Source: Psychrobacter sp. Ps6
GTDB lineage: Bacteria > Pseudomonadota > Gammaproteobacteria > Pseudomonadales > Moraxellaceae
Assembly: GCF_022129235.1 (NCBI RefSeq)
Contig: NZ_JADQAI010000001.1
Span: 62,001-126,000, forward strand
Length of the DNA: 64,000 nucleotides
Direction: 5' to 3'
How positions within the stretch are numbered: position 1 is the stretch's first letter; every line of letters starts with the position of its first letter. Both the position numbers and the translations under genes were made by a program. This document shows positions 23,014 to 62,709 of the stretch, in pieces. Below the pieces are notes generated by a model. It saw only the letters and a list, made by a program, of their open reading frames with translations, was not told the DNA's origin and ran no database searches.

Positions 23014-23814
23014 ATGACGACGGACAGTACTACGCAAGACAATCGCATCACTTATGACACAGATGGCACTATTTGCCTGATTGGGTTAAACCGCGCCAAT
23101 AAACGCAATGCCTTTGACAGTCATATGATCACCCAGCTATCTGACGCATTGACTCGATATGAAGACGATGAGCATCTGCGCTGTGCGCTTATCTTTGCGT
23201 ATGGTGATCACTTCACCGCTGGGCTAGATCTGGTCGAGCTACAAGACAAGCTAAACGACGGTGTGTTTAAGTTTGATGACAACCAAATTGATCCGTGGGG
23301 TATTAGTGGACGCTTACGTACCAAACCTGTGGTGGTGGCGGTCAAAGGCACGTGCTTTACCGTGGCTATCGAATTGATGCTCAATTGTGATGTGGTCATC
23401 GCCAGTGACAACTGTAACTTTGCTCAAATGGAAGTCCAGCGCGGCATCATGCCATTTGGCGGGGCGACGGTACGGTTTGTCGCAGCGGCAGGTTGGCAAA
23501 AAGCCATGCCGTATCTGCTGACGGGCAAAGCATTCGATGCGCAAACGGCTGATCGACTGAATTTGGTCAGTGAAGTGGTGGCAAATGGGACTGAATACGA
23601 GCGTGCATTGACGCTGGCGCAAGAGATTTGTAAAGCTGCACCGCTGGGTGTCAAAGGCGCGCTATCATCAGCGCAAGATGCGAGCCGCAATGGAGCAGCG
23701 ACGGCACTGGCTAATATCCATGGCTATCTGCCGCCACTCTTTCATTCAGAAGATGCGAAAGAAGGCGTGATGGCGATGGTTGAGAGAAGGGAGGCTGAGT
23801 TTAAGGGGTGTTAG
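23014..23814 (+). CDS. Enoyl-CoA hydratase/isomerase family protein
   Basis: Crotonase-fold enzyme, probably adding water to 2-enoyl-CoA. The 266 residues contain the CoA-binding stretch FAYGDHFTAGLDL and both catalytic glutamates of the hydratase type: Glu120 in VAIELMLNCD and Glu140 in AQMEVQRG, exactly 20 residues apart as in rat mitochondrial hydratase. This favours hydratase over the non-catalytic or isomerase-only members. It is a single gene between a LysE exporter and the HD/HSP90-like gene, so the pathway is unknown. The GGA at 23002-23004 (within AAGGACATC) serves as ribosome-binding site. Confidence 0.9.
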   Translation: MTTDSTTQDNRITYDTDGTICLIGLNRANKRNAFDSHMITQLSDALTRYEDDEHLRCALIFAYGDHFTAGLDLVELQDKLNDGVFKFDDNQIDPWGISGRLRTKPVVVAVKGTCFTVAIELMLNCDVVIASDNCNFAQMEVQRGIMPFGGATVRFVAAAGWQKAMPYLLTGKAFDAQTADRLNLVSEVVANGTEYERALTLAQEICKAAPLGVKGALSSAQDASRNGAATALANIHGYLPPLFHSEDAKEGVMAMVERREAEFKGC

Positions 23815-23820
23815 ATTGTA

Positions 23821-23853
23821 AAACCCTTACTTTAAAGTTTAAAGTAAGGGTTT
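23821..23853. terminator. Perfect palindrome between convergent genes
   Basis: A 16-bp perfect inverted repeat (AAACCCTTACTTTAAA and its complement) around one central base. It begins seven bases after the hydratase stop and contains the stop and last codons of the convergent HD/HSP90-like gene. T-runs are short, so it is a modest terminator. Confidence 0.65.
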
Positions 23854-26696
23854 CCATTATTTAGTTCTAACCATGCGTCAGCTATACAGTAGTCGAAAGT
23901 TGATTCGCTATCTGAGATTTTATTTTCCCAATTAAAGTAATGAAATATTGTACTTACTAGCTTTTTCTGATCAAGAGTTTTTACTAATGCCTCTGGACTT
24001 ATTAAAGGAGGTAACTTACCTTCAATTATGTTCTCTAAAACGCACCACTTACTATCTTTCCAAATAATACTTATATTTTCTTGTATGTATTTAGGTATTA
24101 AGTTTGATTCACATATCTCATTATAGTCTTCAATATGCATATAAAGTCTAGAACCTAATAAGAAATCTTTAATGAATATATAGTGAGCTATATAGTGAGA
24201 TGGGCCAGAAATTATAAAATAATTTTTTATCCAATCTGATCTGCCAGTTTTACTTTTTACACTCGCTTGAGTATATGAAAAATCTCCATTCTTATCATGG
24301 GGTATATGGCTGTTAAACAAGTTATTATCATAGGGGATAAGTTGTAGTACGTCAGGCTTAACATTGATCATAGTTTTTTTGTCTAAGAGAGATATACCTT
24401 TACGAGAAAAAGTAAAAGCACTTATATATTTAGCCAAATCTAGATTTTGATACCATTCTAATTTTCTCAAACTTAATGTTTTTTTGACAACATTACCAAT
24501 ACTATTGAAATCGCTATCATCGAACTCATCAAAAAACCTTTTGATAATATCAACTATGACTGCCTTGCTAATCTCATTGATAATTGTAGGGGTGGAATGT
24601 ATAAAGTGAGTCCTTTGTATATCTAAAGGAGTTTGCCCATTAGGATCATATATAACTATAGAAGGATTTCGTGGTTTAAGTATTGATTCATCTTTATCCC
24701 ATGAAAATTTTATATTACTGCCATATCTGTTTGTGTTAATAGCAATACCATTACAAACTAGTATTGAAGACGGTTCATTCGAAAAATCCATAGCTGTGGG
24801 GAATGCCTGATGTGACCAAATAACATCTTCAAAATCTTTACAGTCAACTCTAAACCAATTGGTGTTGTTTAGGTCACTTTTGCACTGCGGAACTTTTATA
24901 GCCTGAGAGAGAGTTTTCATGTACTCTTCATTAGAGTTAATTATCTTTACTAACTCTCTTTTAATTTTAGGAGTGGATAAACAGTACCAATCCCATAATC
25001 GCGTCTTTTTACTTAGATAAGAAGTAATATTTTTATTTGTTTTAATAGATATTTTGGTACCTACGTGACATTCAGTATGAGATATTGTGACTGACTTACT
25101 TCCTCGACTACATTTGAACTTCAAACCCTCATTTTCTGGGCAGTTTATATGTCTTGTTTCAACATTAAGTTCATTACCTAATAAGTATGCCGCTAACAAG
25201 CCGATACCAAACCTTCCCGTACGATTAATATCAGAGCTACCATTGGTTTCATGTATCTTCTTCCATCTATCACTATTTCTAAATGAAGCACCTATATTTA
25301 AGAAGTAGTTTTCGATAGTATCAATGGTCATACCTACACCGTAATCTTCTATAATCACTTCGCCATGATCTTCGTATTCAATGACAGATATGCAGATATC
25401 AAAATCGTCAGGTTTATCAATGTTAATATTTTTTCGTTTATTACTGATATTATTAAGCTCTAAACACGCATCGACTGCATTTTGTACTAACTCACGAATA
25501 CCGATTTCTGGCTTATTACCGTAAAGCGGTGCAATGAGTAGTTCCATCATTTCCGAATCAGCAGTACGGAATTTCAATACTTTAGGAATGAATTCAGGCT
25601 TCTTATTTTTAGTATATTCATCAATATTGTCTAAAGAAGAACGCAAACGACGAATATTGATACCTAAATTAGCCATCTTATCGTATCTTCCATAAACCTC
25701 GCCCAGCACAGCCCAAACCTCATCAAGCTCTCTTTGGATGTCAGTGAAAAGCCATCTCAAGTCTTCGAAAAGAATTGCATCTTGTGGTTCAGCATCTATG
25801 AAGAGAGCTTCTGGGTCTTCATCGGCATGACTAATCTCAAGGATAGCATCGTGCTTTTTCCACTCACCTTTCGATATAGGACTAATCAGAGATTTAACGT
25901 TCAATAGTTGTGAAGGTGCTCTAGTTGCTTGCACTTGGATGTAGTCAGAGATACGTAGTACAGACATCAAAAATGGAACATGAGTATTTAAATGAACTCT
26001 TTTTTTTCTATACTGTATTTTATCGACAGCCTGCCTTAATGACATGTTATGACTTTTAGCAATAAAGCCACATAAATCTAAAAAATGCGTTTTTTGTGCT
26101 TCCGCTAATTTGAGTGTTTTCCCTTCAGTTCCGGGCACACCGTTAAACACAATCTCATGTGCTATTCGAGCGTGATGTCTTCTAATAAATTCACCAATTA
26201 ACAATTTATCTCTAGTCGTAAGATCTATTTTATTATCTGGAATATCACTGACAGGCTTAGCGTCATTAAAGATAGACTTGAGCTTATCAGAGTTAAAGCG
26301 TTTAGCCTCTGCCATATACTCAGACCACATTAAGCTCCATCTAGGCTCTATGCTGACATATTGAGACTTGATTGGTGGATACATATCTTTTATAAGAGAG
26401 TAGAAACCATCTTCTGTGATATGCATTGCACAATCATGAAGTAATACAGAGACTATCATTGCTGATACGTCTTCTGATGTTATGGTATCCCAGCTTTCGT
26501 CTGTAATAATACTTTCAGCTGTCGCCAAAACTTCATTTAAATGGACAAAACTATGGTCAGTATATTCAGGGAAAAACACTGTCGTATTTGCATCTAACCA
26601 AGGCTTAAGATTGTTTACGCTTGTTAAAGTAAAAGAGTTGATACTAGAGTCTTGTTCTAGTCGTTCTTTCATTCTTTTTGGAATATTTAGCGCCAC
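23832..26696 (-). CDS. HD-domain plus HSP90-like (GHKL) ATPase protein, candidate conflict/defence gene
   Basis: A 954-residue soluble protein. Residues 40-260 carry HD-superfamily hallmarks: His48/His52, LLHDCAMH (His87-Asp88), RRHHARIAH (about 172-180) and RISDYIQ with Asp251. Residues 380-620 form an HSP90-like ATPase: N box RELVQNAVDA (401-410), EDYGVGM (450-456), and GRFGIGLLAAYLLG (494-507). The C-terminal 330 residues are unrecognised. The layout resembles HD-HSP90 proteins of bacterial conflict systems; that role is inference. Sampled lines have about 28% GC against clearly higher neighbours, and the gene sits alone between an unrelated hydratase and a cupin gene, which suggests horizontal gain. 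It is intact. Confidence 0.75.
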   Translation of the reverse strand: MALNIPKRMKERLEQDSSINSFTLTSVNNLKPWLDANTTVFFPEYTDHSFVHLNEVLATAESIITDESWDTITSEDVSAMIVSVLLHDCAMHITEDGFYSLIKDMYPPIKSQYVSIEPRWSLMWSEYMAEAKRFNSDKLKSIFNDAKPVSDIPDNKIDLTTRDKLLIGEFIRRHHARIAHEIVFNGVPGTEGKTLKLAEAQKTHFLDLCGFIAKSHNMSLRQAVDKIQYRKKRVHLNTHVPFLMSVLRISDYIQVQATRAPSQLLNVKSLISPISKGEWKKHDAILEISHADEDPEALFIDAEPQDAILFEDLRWLFTDIQRELDEVWAVLGEVYGRYDKMANLGINIRRLRSSLDNIDEYTKNKKPEFIPKVLKFRTADSEMMELLIAPLYGNKPEIGIRELVQNAVDACLELNNISNKRKNINIDKPDDFDICISVIEYEDHGEVIIEDYGVGMTIDTIENYFLNIGASFRNSDRWKKIHETNGSSDINRTGRFGIGLLAAYLLGNELNVETRHINCPENEGLKFKCSRGSKSVTISHTECHVGTKISIKTNKNITSYLSKKTRLWDWYCLSTPKIKRELVKIINSNEEYMKTLSQAIKVPQCKSDLNNTNWFRVDCKDFEDVIWSHQAFPTAMDFSNEPSSILVCNGIAINTNRYGSNIKFSWDKDESILKPRNPSIVIYDPNGQTPLDIQRTHFIHSTPTIINEISKAVIVDIIKRFFDEFDDSDFNSIGNVVKKTLSLRKLEWYQNLDLAKYISAFTFSRKGISLLDKKTMINVKPDVLQLIPYDNNLFNSHIPHDKNGDFSYTQASVKSKTGRSDWIKNYFIISGPSHYIAHYIFIKDFLLGSRLYMHIEDYNEICESNLIPKYIQENISIIWKDSKWCVLENIIEGKLPPLISPEALVKTLDQKKLVSTIFHYFNWENKISDSESTFDYCIADAWLELNNGNPYFKL

Positions 26697-26842: not shown

Positions 26843-27340
26843 TCAAACCTCACCCAAATCTTCCATATCCACATACTCTTTTTTACCATGGATCTTATAC
26901 ATCTTACGCTTGATCTCTGGATACAGGGTAATGTCAATCGGTGGTCGGCTGCCGCCCATTAGATAAGTGGCATCGGCATCGCTATCATTGCGCATCGAGT
27001 GCGCCGCGCCATGCGCAGGGAACGCCGCAAAATCTCCAGCCTTTAGCACATACTGCTCATCACCGTAGCGCAGCGACAGCTCGCCTGACAGCATATAAAT
27101 GAACTCATCCGACTCCTCATGATAGTGGTGCGTCGTCGTCTCATCTCCCGCTTCCACCCGTACGAGGTGCAAGCCAAATTTCGTCAGACCAACGATATCA
27201 CTGAGCGACACCGTATGGCGAATGGCTTGCTCATTGAACTGGTGGATATGCTTGGTCTCAGGCGTGTTATCGATATCGGATTTGGTCAAGACATATGCTT
27301 GCGTGTCCTTACGTGGCTGTTGGTCTGGTGTCGTCATCAT
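26843..27340 (-). CDS. Cupin-domain protein
   Basis: Small beta-barrel protein of about 165 residues. The cupin motif 1 is visible as HHYHEESDEFIYMLSGE with three His and one Glu as metal ligands, and motif 2 as GDFAAFPAHGAAHSMRN. Upstream, AAGGAG lies 4 bases before the ATG at 27340 and 7 before that at 27337, so either start is good; the frame open to 27385 adds an unlikely leader. The substrate is unknown. It is divergent from the PatB/MalY gene. Confidence 0.85.
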   Translation of the reverse strand: MMTTPDQQPRKDTQAYVLTKSDIDNTPETKHIHQFNEQAIRHTVSLSDIVGLTKFGLHLVRVEAGDETTTHHYHEESDEFIYMLSGELSLRYGDEQYVLKAGDFAAFPAHGAAHSMRNDSDADATYLMGGSRPPIDITLYPEIKRKMYKIHGKKEYVDMEDLGEV

Positions 27341-27526
27341 CGGTCTCCTTGATTGATGCTTTGAGTGTATACCACTATTAGCCAATAGTATCAGGTTTTG
27401 AAAGGGACGAAATAGGCGTGATATTGATAATCATATAGCGACTTAATATATCCTGCATAAAGCGATTGTTGATGACGCCATTCATGTTGTACCCTGAGCC
27501 ATTATTTTAAATAAAGGAGAGTGCGG

Positions 27527-28848: not shown

Positions 28849-29862
28849 CTACTGAGCAGACTTATAATAGTCAACGAGCATGGTACCTAATGTGCCGTTT
28901 TCATCAATCGTTACGATACTGACTTGACCTGTCTGTGAGGCGGTACTGGATTTCACTTGACCTGCGTTACCCAAGACAACCTGATGTTTATTGGTCGCTT
29001 TTACGCCATTACCGATAGCGATACTGTTCAAACCGCTGGCTACTGAGATATTACCAATCGCAATAGAGGCCTCACCCTGTGCGGCGGCGGCTTCACCAAC
29101 GGCGGTTGCGCGCATACCACTGGCATTGGCTAGGTGACCAAACGCTTGCGCGCGTTCCCCCGTGGCTTTTGACTGCCAACCGATCGAGGTGGAGCCCAGA
29201 CCTGCCGAATTGGCTTGACCACCGACAGCAGTCGCAGAGTTCATACCTGCGTTTGCTTGGTTACCGACAGCGACGGTATCGTTCGTTCCGCCTGCCATTG
29301 CTGCTTCACCCACTGCCGTTGCACGTACGCCGCTAGCATTAGCTAGGTGGCCGAATGCTTGAGCACGCTCAGCGGTGGCTTTTGATTGCCAACCAATCGA
29401 GGTTGAACCCAGACCTGCCGAATTGGCTTGACCACCGACCGCGGTGGCTGAGTTCATACCTGCATTGGCTTGATTACCGACAGCGACGGTATCATTCGTT
29501 CCGCCTGCCATTGCGGCTTCACCGACGGCGGTTGCACGTACACCGCTAGCATTGGCTAGATGACCAAATGCTTGGGCACGTTCAGCGGTGGCTTTTGACT
29601 GCCAACCAATAGAGGTGGAGCCCAGACCTGCGGCATTGGCTTGACCACCAACCGCGGTTGCAGAGTTCATACGGGCATTTGCTTGACTACCGAGTGCAAC
29701 CGTATCATTGGTGCCACCCGCCATGGCTTGATTACCATAGGCCAGAGCCATTGTGCTACCATCAGCTGCCATCACGGCAGTCGTGCTAAAAGACGCTGTA
29801 GCGACTGCTAGGGCGAGAGTACTGATCTTTAGCGCTGAACGTGATGATAATGCCATTTTCAT
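28849..29862 (-). CDS. YadA-like head-repeat protein without membrane anchor
   Basis: A 337-residue exported protein. A signal peptide (MKMALSSRSALKISTLALAV, cleavage near VMAADG) is followed by left-handed-roll head repeats of the Hep/Hag type. Three units of 71 residues (213 bp) run in tandem, each ending QAFGHLANASG. A neck-like segment (VVLGNAGQV) comes next and the protein stops at GTMLVDYYKSAQ, exactly where its neighbour continues into stalk and beta-barrel anchor. Without an anchor it cannot be an autonomous type Vc adhesin; it could be secreted into the periplasm, mix with the paralog in trimers, or be a decayed copy. Confidence 0.82.
   Translation of the reverse strand: MKMALSSRSALKISTLALAVATASFSTTAVMAADGSTMALAYGNQAMAGGTNDTVALGSQANARMNSATAVGGQANAAGLGSTSIGWQSKATAERAQAFGHLANASGVRATAVGEAAMAGGTNDTVAVGNQANAGMNSATAVGGQANSAGLGSTSIGWQSKATAERAQAFGHLANASGVRATAVGEAAMAGGTNDTVAVGNQANAGMNSATAVGGQANSAGLGSTSIGWQSKATGERAQAFGHLANASGMRATAVGEAAAAQGEASIAIGNISVASGLNSIAIGNGVKATNKHQVVLGNAGQVKSSTASQTGQVSIVTIDENGTLGTMLVDYYKSAQ
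29124..29762 (-). repeat. Tandem 213-bp units in the anchorless adhesin gene
   Basis: The marker sequence CATTRGCTAGRTG recurs at 29124, 29337 and 29550, spacing 213 bases, matching the three 71-residue protein repeats. Confidence 0.75.
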
Positions 29863-30053
29863 AGTTTTTTATCCTGTTTTTTTAAATATTAAAGTCTCGT
29901 AAAATGATCCAGTTAGATACTTATTAAGACTTGTTTAGGCGAGTTTATATACATTTCAATTGGTTGGAGAAATTTCAGTGATATCTACTGCGCTCTGCCT
30001 ATACAAGCTCAAGGCGGCAGTAGATATTTATGAGCAGTTACTAAGTAAATGAA

Positions 30054-31811
30054 TTACCAAGAAAAAGTGACACCGCCGCGAGCGCCTACTTTTCCAGTAT
30101 CAAGCCCGACACCTGCACCAGCCGAAATGGTCATGCTATCGCTCATTCTGCCAGCAAATGAGGTACTCAATGCTGAGCTGCTATTGTAATAGCCGGTACC
30201 AAATGACATGGCATAGCGCTTACCTGCAGGAATGACGGGGGTTTCCATAGATAACGCCATGGCGATACCGTCTTCGGCTTCATCTAAGCGGTCCTCTTGA
30301 CGATCATAGCGACTGCGTAAGTCGTTAAATTGTCTAGAGGTCGCCAGTGAGTCTATGCTGACACTGGTACCTAGTGTGCCATTTGCATCGGTTGTGACAA
30401 GATTGGTCGTGCCTGTCTGGGCTGCGGTACTGGCTTGCAGTTGACCTGCATTGCCCAAGACGATCTGATTGTCAGCGGCTGCTATTGCGCCATTACCGAT
30501 AGCGATACTATTGGTGCCGCCTGCTGTTGACTGGTTACCCAGTGATACTGATCCTGATCCTGCTGCCGCTGCGGCTTCACCGACTGCGGTAGAACGCTCG
30601 CCAGTTGCTGATGCCAGATGACCAAAGGCTTGAGCACGGACACCGCTTGCGGTTGATTGCCAGCCCATCGCAGTTGCACCCGCTTGAGTGGCTTGAGCTT
30701 GCGCACCGATAGCGGTGGAGGATGTACCAGAAGCAGTCGTTTGACGTACGCCACTTCTATCGCCACCGATCGCTACACCGTCAAGACCTGAGGCGACTGA
30801 ATTATTACCGATAGCAATTGCATTATCTGACTCAGCACTGGCAGCTTCACCAACTGCCGTTGAACGTACGCCGCTGGCATTGGCTAGGTGACCAAAGGCT
30901 TGCGCGCGTTCAGCAGTTGCTTTTGATTGCCAACCGACAGAGGTAGAACCAAGACCTGCGGCGTTTGCTTGACCACCGACCGCGGTAGCTGAATTCATTC
31001 CTGCATTTGCTAGATTACCGATAGCAACAGTATCGTTAGTACCACCTGCCACCGATTCATTACCTAGTGCGACAGAGCGCTCACCTTGAGCAGCAGCATC
31101 TTCACCCACTGCAAGTGAGCGCTCACCAGAAGCGCTGGCTAGATGACCAAACGCCTGAGCTCTTTCTGCAGTCGCTGTAGCGCGCCAACCGACTGCGGTT
31201 GCTCCTGCTGTTTCGCCTGTCGATGTCAGGTTACCAGCATTTAGGTCAGTGCCTGCCGCTACTGTGCCAGTAAAAGCCTCACCTCCCAATACAGTGGTCG
31301 AATTACCATTGGCTTGGGTTTTGTTACCGACAGCGACAGTATCGTTGGCACCACCAGCAAAAGCGTCTTCACCAACAGCTGTAGAACGAACGCCGGAAGC
31401 ACTGGCTAAATGCCCCACTGCGGTGGCTCTTTCGGCGGTCGCCGTAGCACGCCAACCAATGGCCGTCGCACCCGGTGTACCACCTGTAGAGGTCAGAGCG
31501 CCTCCATTTAAGTCTGTACCTGTGGCGACTGTGCCAGTGAAAGCCTCACCGCCAACCGCGGTAGTAGAGTTGCCAGTGGTACTTGCTGCATTACCGATAG
31601 CCACGGTATCGTTCGTACCACCAGCGACCGCGTTATTACCACAAGCGAGTGCTGTGGCGCCGTTACTAGTTGCGCCTCCATTAGTGCCATCATCAAGTCG
31701 ACATTCAGCTGCCATGGTGCTGGTAGTGGCAAAAGACGCAGCGGCGGTAATGGCTAAGGTGAGAGTACTAAGCTTTAGAGCAGAGCGCGGTAAGAAGTCC
31801 ATTTTTTTCAT
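30054..31811 (-). CDS. Trimeric autotransporter adhesin (YadA-like, type Vc)
   Basis: A 585-residue surface adhesin. The signal peptide (cleaved near TMAAEC) is followed by about 430 residues of AxAxG-type head repeats, a neck (IVLGNAGQLQ), a short coiled-coil stalk (SRQFNDLRSRYDRQEDRLDE), and a C-terminal YadA anchor of four beta strands (from AGKRYAMSFGTGYY to GGVTFSW with terminal Trp). Trimers form the outer-membrane pore and display the head, usually for binding host or abiotic surfaces. It lies 191 bases upstream of the anchorless paralog on the same strand; repeats in the two are nearly alike, so recombination between them is possible. Confidence 0.92.
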   Translation of the reverse strand: MKKMDFLPRSALKLSTLTLAITAAASFATTSTMAAECRLDDGTNGGATSNGATALACGNNAVAGGTNDTVAIGNAASTTGNSTTAVGGEAFTGTVATGTDLNGGALTSTGGTPGATAIGWRATATAERATAVGHLASASGVRSTAVGEDAFAGGANDTVAVGNKTQANGNSTTVLGGEAFTGTVAAGTDLNAGNLTSTGETAGATAVGWRATATAERAQAFGHLASASGERSLAVGEDAAAQGERSVALGNESVAGGTNDTVAIGNLANAGMNSATAVGGQANAAGLGSTSVGWQSKATAERAQAFGHLANASGVRSTAVGEAASAESDNAIAIGNNSVASGLDGVAIGGDRSGVRQTTASGTSSTAIGAQAQATQAGATAMGWQSTASGVRAQAFGHLASATGERSTAVGEAAAAAGSGSVSLGNQSTAGGTNSIAIGNGAIAAADNQIVLGNAGQLQASTAAQTGTTNLVTTDANGTLGTSVSIDSLATSRQFNDLRSRYDRQEDRLDEAEDGIAMALSMETPVIPAGKRYAMSFGTGYYNSSSALSTSFAGRMSDSMTISAGAGVGLDTGKVGARGGVTFSW

Positions 31812-35005: not shown

Positions 35006-36379
35006 TTAGGCCAGAACTTCAATATGCTTTAGCTCTATATAACTATGGTTCTGTTTAAGCTGTAAGATTCTAATAGGACCAGAGAATTTCAAAGTGTTCA
35101 AGATAAGCTTATGGAATAAATCTAAACAGGATAAAACCTGCTCAAGCTCTAGTTTCTCTTTAGCTAGGTCTTCTTCTCGAACCTTAGGATGCGCACTTTC
35201 ATTACGAATTTTTTGCCACAACTTTTTGTCTTTAGCTGTTATAACATCATATTTAATTAAATAATCAAGAGCTTTCGCTGCTGTAATATTTTTCCAATAG
35301 CTCACGCTACCAAGAAGTCGGTTGCATTGTTCATTCGTCAAATCAAGATTTTTTATCTGTATTTTTATTTTATTGATCTCGTCATTCAATTCTGTATTCT
35401 CATTCTTGGACTTAATGACAGGAATATAAATATCATTAAGTAGACCTTCTATAGCAACTGACAAAGTAAGAATCATAATACTATTTTTTGATTGAAACGA
35501 GTACCAAACCCTTTCCCATTGTGAATATAAGCTATCAAACTGCTTCGGATTTTCTGTATATAGACTAATTATATTTTCTAAAAAAGCGTAATGGTAAGTA
35601 GAGTCTCTATACTTTTCATCGCCAGCGTTATCAACCATTGGACTAGATGAGGTCTGTCGTTTCTGTTTATTAGATATACTGTAAAAAGTTTGTTTTTCTT
35701 CTCCGTTTATAATGCTTTTCGTATAATAGGGTTGGGGCATAGAGGCACTAGAAAATCCAATGTAAAACTTGAGACACTTCAATAATTTATCAGGCTCAAA
35801 ACATCCAGCTACATTAACTTCCGTATAACCCCTATGTTTTACCATAGATATGGAGTAGCCATCCATTTCTATCACAGTTTGATTCCAACTGTATGATTCA
35901 GTGCCAAGGCTAGACACCAGTGAGTTTTGTTTATTTGATGGTATTTTAAAATAATCTGCAAACTCAAAATACAGAAAACTATCCTCTTTTAGCTTGGGTA
36001 GTTCAGTATCATTTAGCGAATAAATAGACGATAACATTACGTCATAATGAGTTGGTAAGGAGGACGAATGAATATTAATTGTGATAGAAAACCCATTAGA
36101 TTGATATTCGTTACCGTCTAACGTTTTAATATGGAGGTATAGTTTCTCTTCATGGTTTAATGGGTCTTTAGGTAATTTTTCATTGAAGAATGCGCGTGGT
36201 ACATTCTTACTATCGGTACAAATAAATTCTAAATAAATAGTTCCGACACTGTTAATTTTGATAGTACCGTGTCCTAACATTTTGAATCCGTTCTCTGCTG
36301 CTTGAAAGATTTTTACTTCGACACAGTGTAAAACTAATTCGCCAGTACGAATCTGTTCAATTATTTCATTTGATAGCAT
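35006..36379 (-). CDS. HEPN-domain protein, candidate abortive-infection RNase
   Basis: A 457-residue soluble protein I cannot name. The C-terminal half (about 265-460) is all-helical with HEPN features: a helix with AIEGLLND and the catalytic motif Rx4H as RNESAH (Arg396 to His401 counting from the upstream GTG), which in HEPN RNases forms the active site. The N-terminal 230 residues look beta-rich, broadly like the ApeA-type anti-phage proteins; this likeness is from memory of the fold order, not alignment. Sampled lines are about 27% GC, far below guaA upstream. A GTG at 36391 is an alternative start. It stands alone on its strand. Confidence 0.7.
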   Translation of the reverse strand: MLSNEIIEQIRTGELVLHCVEVKIFQAAENGFKMLGHGTIKINSVGTIYLEFICTDSKNVPRAFFNEKLPKDPLNHEEKLYLHIKTLDGNEYQSNGFSITINIHSSSLPTHYDVMLSSIYSLNDTELPKLKEDSFLYFEFADYFKIPSNKQNSLVSSLGTESYSWNQTVIEMDGYSISMVKHRGYTEVNVAGCFEPDKLLKCLKFYIGFSSASMPQPYYTKSIINGEEKQTFYSISNKQKRQTSSSPMVDNAGDEKYRDSTYHYAFLENIISLYTENPKQFDSLYSQWERVWYSFQSKNSIMILTLSVAIEGLLNDIYIPVIKSKNENTELNDEINKIKIQIKNLDLTNEQCNRLLGSVSYWKNITAAKALDYLIKYDVITAKDKKLWQKIRNESAHPKVREEDLAKEKLELEQVLSCLDLFHKLILNTLKFSGPIRILQLKQNHSYIELKHIEVLA

Positions 36380-36500
36380 ACAGATATTCACCCTTGATTT
36401 TAAATGTACTGAATAGCCAAAGATTCGTTATTATTTGATCATAGCACGCCTACAACTACGCATTTTAATATTAAAAATATTTTACCGTGCTACTAACATA

Positions 36501-61527: not shown

Positions 61528-62709
61528 CTAGTCAATATAAACCACTTCAAGCGGCGGAAAACCATTGAACTCTACCGATGAATACGAGTTGGTATAAGCG
61601 CCCGTAGTGAGCCAATAGATTTTGTCACCAATCTCAAGCTCCTCTGGCAACTGATAACCTGCTTCTTCATACATGATATCGGTTGAGTCACAAGTTGGAC
61701 CTGCCAGTACGACTGTCCCTTCACTAGTAGAAGTTTCCATCTTCGGGGTATAGACAGGATACTTGATTGCTTCGCCTAGCGTCTCGATTAAGCCTTGGAA
61801 TAAACCGACATCCGTATATACCCAGCGCGCCAAATCTGTATCTGATTTGCGAGAGATCAGTACCACATCACTCACCAAGACACCTGAACCACCGACCAAT
61901 GAACGGCCTGGCTCCAGAATAATCTCAGGCATCTCGTCATCATTATAATCATCAGTCAAATAGCTGGTGATCTCTTCTGCATAGACCTTAATAGGATTGA
62001 CTTCGCTGATGTAGTTGGTTGGGAAGCCGCCACCTAGATTGATCATTTGTAGCTTGATGCCTTCTTCGTTCTTCATCCAGTCAAACATATACTTAACTTT
62101 GGCTAACGCATCATCCCATGCCGCAACGTCTTTTTGCTGACTGCCAACGTGGAACGAAATACCATAAGGTACCAAGCCAAGCTCACGCGCTTGAATGAGC
62201 AAATCAATAGCCATATTCGGGTGACAGCCAAACTTACGTGACAATGGCCATTCTGCTGTCTCTGACCCTTGTACCAATATGCGCACAAATACTTTAGAGC
62301 CAGGTGCATGTTTGGCAATATTTTTTAGGTCTGCTTCTGAGTCGGTCGCGTACAGATCGATACCTTTTTCAAAGGCATACTTAACATGGTCGGCTTTTTT
62401 GATGGTGTTACCATAAGAAATGCGCGATGGCTCAACGCCGCAATCAAGCACACGATCCAGCTCATAGATAGAGGCACAGTCAAAGTTAGAGCCAAGCTTT
62501 GCCAGCAGATTGATTACTTCAACTGCAGGACTTGCCTTCATCGCATAATGCAGTTTGGCATTCGGAAACAGGCTGACCATCTCATGATACTTGGTCTCGA
62601 TACGACTTAGGTCCACCACTAAAAACGGGGTCTCGCGACCTTCAGCAGCTTTGGTAAATTTCTGCCAGCTGGCAGGTTCAAAATATTGGTCAATTTTGAT
62701 CATTGTCAT
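61528..62709 (-). CDS. Ornithine/lysine decarboxylase, fold-type III PLP
   Basis: PLP-dependent decarboxylase of the alanine-racemase fold, eukaryotic-ODC type, making putrescine or cadaverine. The PLP lysine is in AKLHYAMKASPAVEV; SFHVGSQQ, NLGGGFPT and ILEPGRSLVG bind cofactor; the catalytic Cys/Asp pair is GPTCDSTD, at the C-terminal barrel. At about 393 residues it matches bacterial ODC/LDC enzymes. ATG at 62709 with AAAGG upstream is preferred over the open frame to 62781. Ornithine versus lysine preference cannot be told from what I see. Confidence 0.9.
   Translation of the reverse strand: MTMIKIDQYFEPASWQKFTKAAEGRETPFLVVDLSRIETKYHEMVSLFPNAKLHYAMKASPAVEVINLLAKLGSNFDCASIYELDRVLDCGVEPSRISYGNTIKKADHVKYAFEKGIDLYATDSEADLKNIAKHAPGSKVFVRILVQGSETAEWPLSRKFGCHPNMAIDLLIQARELGLVPYGISFHVGSQQKDVAAWDDALAKVKYMFDWMKNEEGIKLQMINLGGGFPTNYISEVNPIKVYAEEITSYLTDDYNDDEMPEIILEPGRSLVGGSGVLVSDVVLISRKSDTDLARWVYTDVGLFQGLIETLGEAIKYPVYTPKMETSTSEGTVVLAGPTCDSTDIMYEEAGYQLPEELEIGDKIYWLTTGAYTNSYSSVEFNGFPPLEVVYID

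Follow-up and report, generated by a model that had tools for sequence, protein, structure and literature searches.

Two described phage-defense proteins are close in kind to the one analyzed here. VcSduA, in the account given in PMC12137116, is a fusion of a GHKL ATPase with a nuclease, and altering either site abolishes phage defense. Clover CloA, as presented in PMC12265719, is an HD-superfamily effector of phage defense with an HE catalytic dyad (H126/E129) that lies at +9/+12 after H117. HSP90 itself has a place in immunity, as it supports the NLR immune receptors of plants and animals according to the account in PMC12169576. Here we analyze a gene from a 64,000-nucleotide stretch of the Psychrobacter sp. 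Ps6 genome (NZ_JADQAI010000001.1, positions 62,001 to 126,000; herein the window). It encodes an HD domain and an HSP90-like ATPase, has a C-terminal half that is hypervariable and appears to have been exchanged, and is probably a single-gene anti-phage system.

Results

The gene lies on the minus strand at 23832..26696 of the window and encodes 954 residues from a GTG start; a plus-strand reading from 23832 meets 61 stops. A preliminary description of the window had given this open reading frame (ORF) its correct boundaries, leaving out the strand, and had read from it an HD motif (His87-Asp88, Asp251) and a GHKL/HSP90-like ATPase, both of which are borne out. Residues 41 through 324 (25725..26576, minus strand) match Pfam HD-CE (PF24391; E = 8.7e-36) with 124.4 bits against a curated cut-off of 27, covering model positions 1 through 262 of 263. 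The HSP90/GHKL ATP-binding domain follows at residues ∼372 through 560 (25017..25583, minus strand), where PF13589 matches residues 396 through 519 (E = 2.3e-8) and the NCBIfam HtpG model matches residues 375 through 564 (E = 2e-24), yet with 86.1 bits against an equivalog cut-off of 371.

Residue conservation was compared across 47 family members, comprising the window protein, the proteins of 45 of the 54 loci described below, and a homolog on a viral contig (L200); the nine loci without an ORF of >800 residues were dropped. H87, D88, H216, D251, E402, N406, D409, D451, G453, G455, and R695 are kept in 47 of 47, and H48, H52, and H175 in 46 of 47, the remaining protein being gapped there. 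These include the H...HD...D metal-site residues of the HD superfamily and the catalytic Glu, Asn, and DxGxG motif of a GHKL N domain (E402, N406, and D451-x-G-x-G). We take H175, H216, and the H-x3-H start (H48/H52) to be reminiscent of the binuclear and phosphodiesterase (PDE)-like branch of the HD superfamily.

In the predicted structure, the HD-CE domain has an HD fold, the lack of which would have counted against the preliminary description, and residues 378 through 720 model as HSP90 N and middle domains, in the order seen in the HSP90 (HtpG) family. The C terminus had been described as unplaceable. This holds for residues 721 through 954; in the predicted structure, the alignment with the HSP90 middle domain extends to residue ∼720, and part of the supposedly unplaced segment is therefore middle domain. 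This middle-domain-like region (residues ∼561 through 720; 24537..25016, minus strand) is variable apart from the invariant R695, which may correspond to the HSP90 middle-domain catalytic arginine. It is followed by a hypervariable region (residues ∼721 through 954; 23835..24536, minus strand) that varies together with it and in which Pfam recognizes no domain; a single subthreshold match to a domain of unknown function (DUF) stops at residue 612. For the HD half, only the VIA structural comparison gave a coherent list; Foldseek gave nothing at E < 0.001, and a profile search against PDB sequences gave one chance match (E = 0.42). With the whole protein, HSP90-family chains are among the matches listed by Foldseek and VIA; 5 of the 50 structural matches listed extend beyond residue 752, residues 721 through 954 having been modeled within the whole protein only.

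The two halves of the protein have conflicting histories. Mean identity to the window protein among 70 homologs falls from 63.1% in the HD domain and 60.5% in the HSP90 N domain to 31.1% in the middle region and 20.7% in residues 721 through 954. Across 31 full-length close homologs, pairwise distances for residues 1 through 545 and 575 through 954 correlate with r = 0.16; a weak link between the halves remains, as a value this high arises in only 4 of the 2000 Mantel permutations. Middle and C segments correlate closely (r = 0.91 to 0.94) and two parts of the HD domain less so (r = 0.54), whereas for HD and C r is about 0. The HSP90 N domain moderately follows the middle and C segments (r = 0.44 to 0.50) rather than the HD domain (r = 0.03 to 0.07). 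Individual pairs make the conflict plain: identities in the two halves are 85% and 99% for P0001 and P0002, but 97% and 33% for P0002 and P0031. Named strains alone also show it, with 94% and 38% for P0008 and P0026 (Psychrobacter sp. Ps7), whose HD branch lengths are 0.003 each, against 88% and 86% for P0006 (Psychrobacter sp. DM4) and P0008. Tree tests reject the C tree for the HD part (approximately unbiased [AU] p = 0.0002) and the HD tree for the C part (AU p = 1e-6). As controls, the N domain and the rest of HtpG correlate with r = 0.92 (28 sequences) and 0.96 (7 Psychrobacter sequences), and the halves of the enoyl-CoA-hydratase-like protein encoded beside the gene with r = 0.68 (97 sequences).

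A second HD-CE/HSP90 subfamily (L054:9833-12892, L212-L224) is present in 14 of 105 genomes of the genus; the copy in G022 is ∼22% identical to the window protein. The Pfam HD-CE model fits this subfamily better (4.5e-56 to 4.8e-52, 14 genomes) than the window-type one (8e-40 to 4e-35, 3 genomes). Among ten full-length copies from genomes, mean identity is 81% in the HD domain, 56% in the HSP90 N domain, and 24% in the C part, and the HSP90 N domain follows the C part (r = 0.83) more closely than the HD domain (r = 0.32), with r = 0.14 between HD and C. Thus G154 and G018 share 96% identity in the HD domain and 18% in the C part, against 86% and 88% for G033 and G003. Taken over both subfamilies, the correlations suggest that the HSP90-plus-C part behaves as an exchanged unit with the HD domain as its constant partner, clearly in the second subfamily and partially in the window-type one. 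Recombination would be the cause of these conflicting histories; assembly chimerism might account for single metagenomic cases, but hardly for the named strains and genomes.

The place of the gene is a cargo hotspot in Psychrobacter. Its left anchor is the enoyl-CoA-hydratase-like gene (23014..23814, plus strand), found in 101 of 105 genus genomes; on the right, the window has a cupin-like gene (26843..27385, minus strand), and in other genomes another backbone gene comes next. Both names are our own reading of the sequences. The hydratase-like gene converges with the HD-CE/HSP90-like gene, and the cupin-like gene lies upstream of the latter. The position between metabolic genes and the AT richness remarked on earlier are both confirmed: the GC content of the gene (0.340) is the second lowest among the 45 window ORFs of at least 150 residues (median 0.473).

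We surveyed this single chromosomal slot, defined as the interval between the hydratase stop and the backbone gene that follows and counted as empty when <450 bp, in 98 genomes and the window (G057 and G075 were left out of the 101 with the hydratase). Of these 99 neighborhoods, 8 are cut by a contig end and 91 are complete; 40 complete slots are empty and 51 hold low-GC cargo (mean GC 0.351, sd 0.031, against 0.489 for the hydratase). The HD-CE/HSP90-like gene fills three occupied slots (G000, the window genome; G087; G156), always in the same orientation and 18 to 19 bp past the hydratase stop, with no second gene of at least 70 residues in the slot. A comparison of this locus across the genus had been proposed in the preliminary description; rather than being present in all Psychrobacter, the gene is found in 3 of the 91 complete slots.

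A defense-type gene is present in 32 of the 48 occupied slots without the HD-CE/HSP90-like gene: McrBC in 11, Tmn in 5, Gabija GajAB in 4, NACHT in 4, FRG/PDC-S15 in 4 (one split), restriction-modification type in 2 (a methyltransferase next to a GHKL protein or a match to a McrB-like REase model), nSTAND3/PDC-S73 in 1, and a reverse transcriptase in 1. The other 16 slots carry Sel1 repeats (5), a 328-residue family termed c23 (2), Sel1 with c23 (1), a DEAD/ResIII helicase (1), SLFN_AlbA (1), a GajB-like piece (1), or nothing recognized (5). Cluster representatives were scanned, other members being assigned by blastp clustering at 30% identity over half the longer protein; NACHT in G065 and G150 was found by tblastn, and the NACHT and McrC calls rest on Pfam, PADLOC having given no match for them.

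The hotspot also supplies a list of further defense candidates. A 1179-residue cargo protein in the slot of G070 (L059:3816-7355, minus strand), for which neither Pfam nor PADLOC gave a match within the limits applied, is one such candidate. The c23 family (L113:865-1851, plus strand) lies close behind the hydratase in G004 and G049, with a related ORF in G060, and is matched by neither Pfam nor PADLOC. In the slot of G158, the reverse transcriptase (L108:6266-7594, plus strand; RVT_1, PADLOC RT and UG17-like models) stands beside an ORF of 190 residues.

The distribution of the family is patchy. A homolog search gave 1348 sequences at E ≤ 0.001 among 7999 scored candidates. Of 369 genomes sampled from the class, 5 have HD-CE, the window genome being one of them; in the genus, it occurs in 17 of the 105 genomes, with 3 of the window-type subfamily and 14 of the second subfamily, the latter outside the hydratase slot. 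In a separate search of 90 genus genomes, 2 (one being the window genome) have a full-length match; the others that match do so in the ATPase region only (HtpG-like), except for a divergent longer match in G022. A search of genome contigs located 54 loci across Proteobacteria, Bacteroidota, Firmicutes, and others, 45 of them with an ORF of 857 to 1106 residues. Neighbor ORFs no more than 5 kb away from 44 such loci (with L200, Psychrobacter excluded) number 369, and no family among them recurs at more than two loci; the gene thus has no constant partner. At 37 non-Psychrobacter loci, 65 PADLOC families have at least one member among 140 neighbor ORFs at E up to 1e-12, and the 25 families listed of these include AbiEi/AbiEii, ThsB, PifA, mad2/mad3, DpdF, and pAgo; as this count has no control and the number of distinct ORFs is not given, we do not use it as support.

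Two homologs lie on IMG/VR viral contigs, one with NinB-, RecT-, and integrase-like genes and the other with tail-fiber and lysis genes as neighbors, in our reading. Of these, L200:10004-12811 lies on a 52-kb viral contig (43% identity in the best segment), and since it sits among phage-like genes the family may also travel on prophages. Plasmids gave no match at 1e-20, and E. coli genomes gave none in a DNA search with three queries from other species' homologs; 14 phage records match the ATPase part, covering at most 21% of the query.

Other features of the window were recorded alongside. A terminator-like hairpin with a 15-bp stem (23821..23853; −17.5 kcal/mol) spans the convergent 3′ ends and includes the stop of the HD-CE/HSP90-like gene; look-alikes are seen by eye at the corresponding place in G156 and G087. 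The lowest GC content of the 45 window ORFs (0.333) belongs to one of 461 residues (35006-36391, minus strand) that has no Pfam match and carries near its end RNESAH, which we read as an RxxxxH motif of HEPN type. It lies behind a guaA-like gene, where differing low-GC ORFs are also found in G029, G066, G154, and G002; this site is possibly a second hotspot. Two adjoining repeat-rich adhesin-like ORFs of 337 and 585 residues (28849-31811, minus strand) have internal repeats that are near-identical by eye, and their number varies between genomes.

Discussion

The defensive role that the preliminary description had suggested gains support from the domains and conserved active-site residues of the protein, the position of the gene among defense genes, its patchy distribution, and its mosaic make-up. 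From these we infer protection itself, as well as the trigger, substrate, clamp gating, and dimerization in the following mechanism. The variable middle/C half would bind a product of the invader as HSP90 binds a client. A dimeric clamp would next close in an ATP-dependent manner and so free or assemble the HD active site, a putative metal-dependent phosphodiesterase or phosphohydrolase. Once active, this site would degrade a nucleotide or nucleic acid and thereby halt the infected cell. The rapidly changing C-terminal half is likely what recognizes the invader.

We advance more tentatively, at somewhat less than even chances, the idea that an HSP90 clamp has here been turned into an immune receptor. 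Its client-binding half would be a shuffled, hypervariable specificity module, an invader protein would be bound in the manner of a client, and closure would fire the fused HD hydrolase. If true, the link between HSP90 and NLR receptors would take a direct form here, with the HSP90 fold itself fused to the effector and bearing the variable part in a single bacterial gene. The idea can be tested without protein design, on natural alleles with a common HD half and different C halves.

The roles of the halves could be reversed, although we consider this unlikely: the HD domain would bind or hydrolyze a nucleotide signal that phage induces, and targets in the infected cell would be acted on by the HSP90-middle/C half, which would diversify against phage inhibitors. 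HD domains are capable of acting on nucleotides, the middle/C domains of HSP90 bind client proteins, and the C half diversifies in both subfamilies; yet it is the most conserved part of the protein that carries the enzyme-like set of near-invariant His and Asp residues, and residues 721 through 954 hold no domain recognized by Pfam. A stress-response or proteostasis accessory unrelated to phage, such as a specialized HtpG with an HD regulator, is less probable still. HtpG is the closest named family of the ATPase and some sources label homologs "molecular chaperone HtpG", but an accessory of this kind fits poorly with patchy occurrence in a defense-rich hotspot, low GC, and a hypervariable half; HtpG itself has no such mosaic (r = 0.92 and 0.96), and the window genome has another HtpG-like gene (G000:C114). 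Finally, a polymorphic toxin or other factor in competition with neighboring bacteria, whose logic the constant part and variable C half resemble, is very improbable given three carrier slots with no second gene of at least 70 residues, no recurring neighbor elsewhere, and no toxin domain recognized by Pfam.

Regarded as a probable single-gene defense system, the protein can be set beside known ones. Its domain family is already catalogued: Pfam HD-CE proteins that also carry HATPase_c_3, and that often bear the name "HD domain-containing protein" or "ATP-binding protein", share both Pfam domains with it, as do all of the best 120 of the 1348 homologs (120/120). A described defense system with this family was not found in PADLOC 2023, whose system models gave no system match (the best, REase_II, E = 1.1e-4, covers residues 430 through 536, the ATPase only), or in searches of an open-licence library, which yielded neither an experimental function for such a protein nor the origin of the name HD-CE. 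Relative to HtpG/HSP90/TRAP1, the window protein has an HD domain in front and a hypervariable C half, scores far below the HtpG cut-off, and has no HSP90 C-terminal dimerization domain recognized by Pfam.

With CloA and the defense dNTPases it shares an HD-superfamily effector, although CloA works with the NTase CloB in the account of PMC12265719, whereas no partner is seen here. A CloA-type dNTPase reading of the HD domain was rejected, as the HE dyad is not conserved: judged by sequence position, the residue at +9 is D96, an Asp in 26 of 47 members, and that at +12 is Y99, a Tyr in 5 of 47; none of the His, Glu, or Asp residues that the window protein has at positions 89 through 119 is kept in at least 42 of 47. 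The DUF4263 nuclease domain of Shedu has no Pfam match in the protein at E up to 10. VcSduA, of Shedu type, has a C-terminal PD-(D/E)xK nuclease as effector where the window protein has an N-terminal HD domain; like the latter it is a single protein in which a GHKL ATPase and a clamp-like middle domain are coupled to an effector (PMC12137116), and among the systems compared it is the nearest tested parallel to the proposed sensor-effector.
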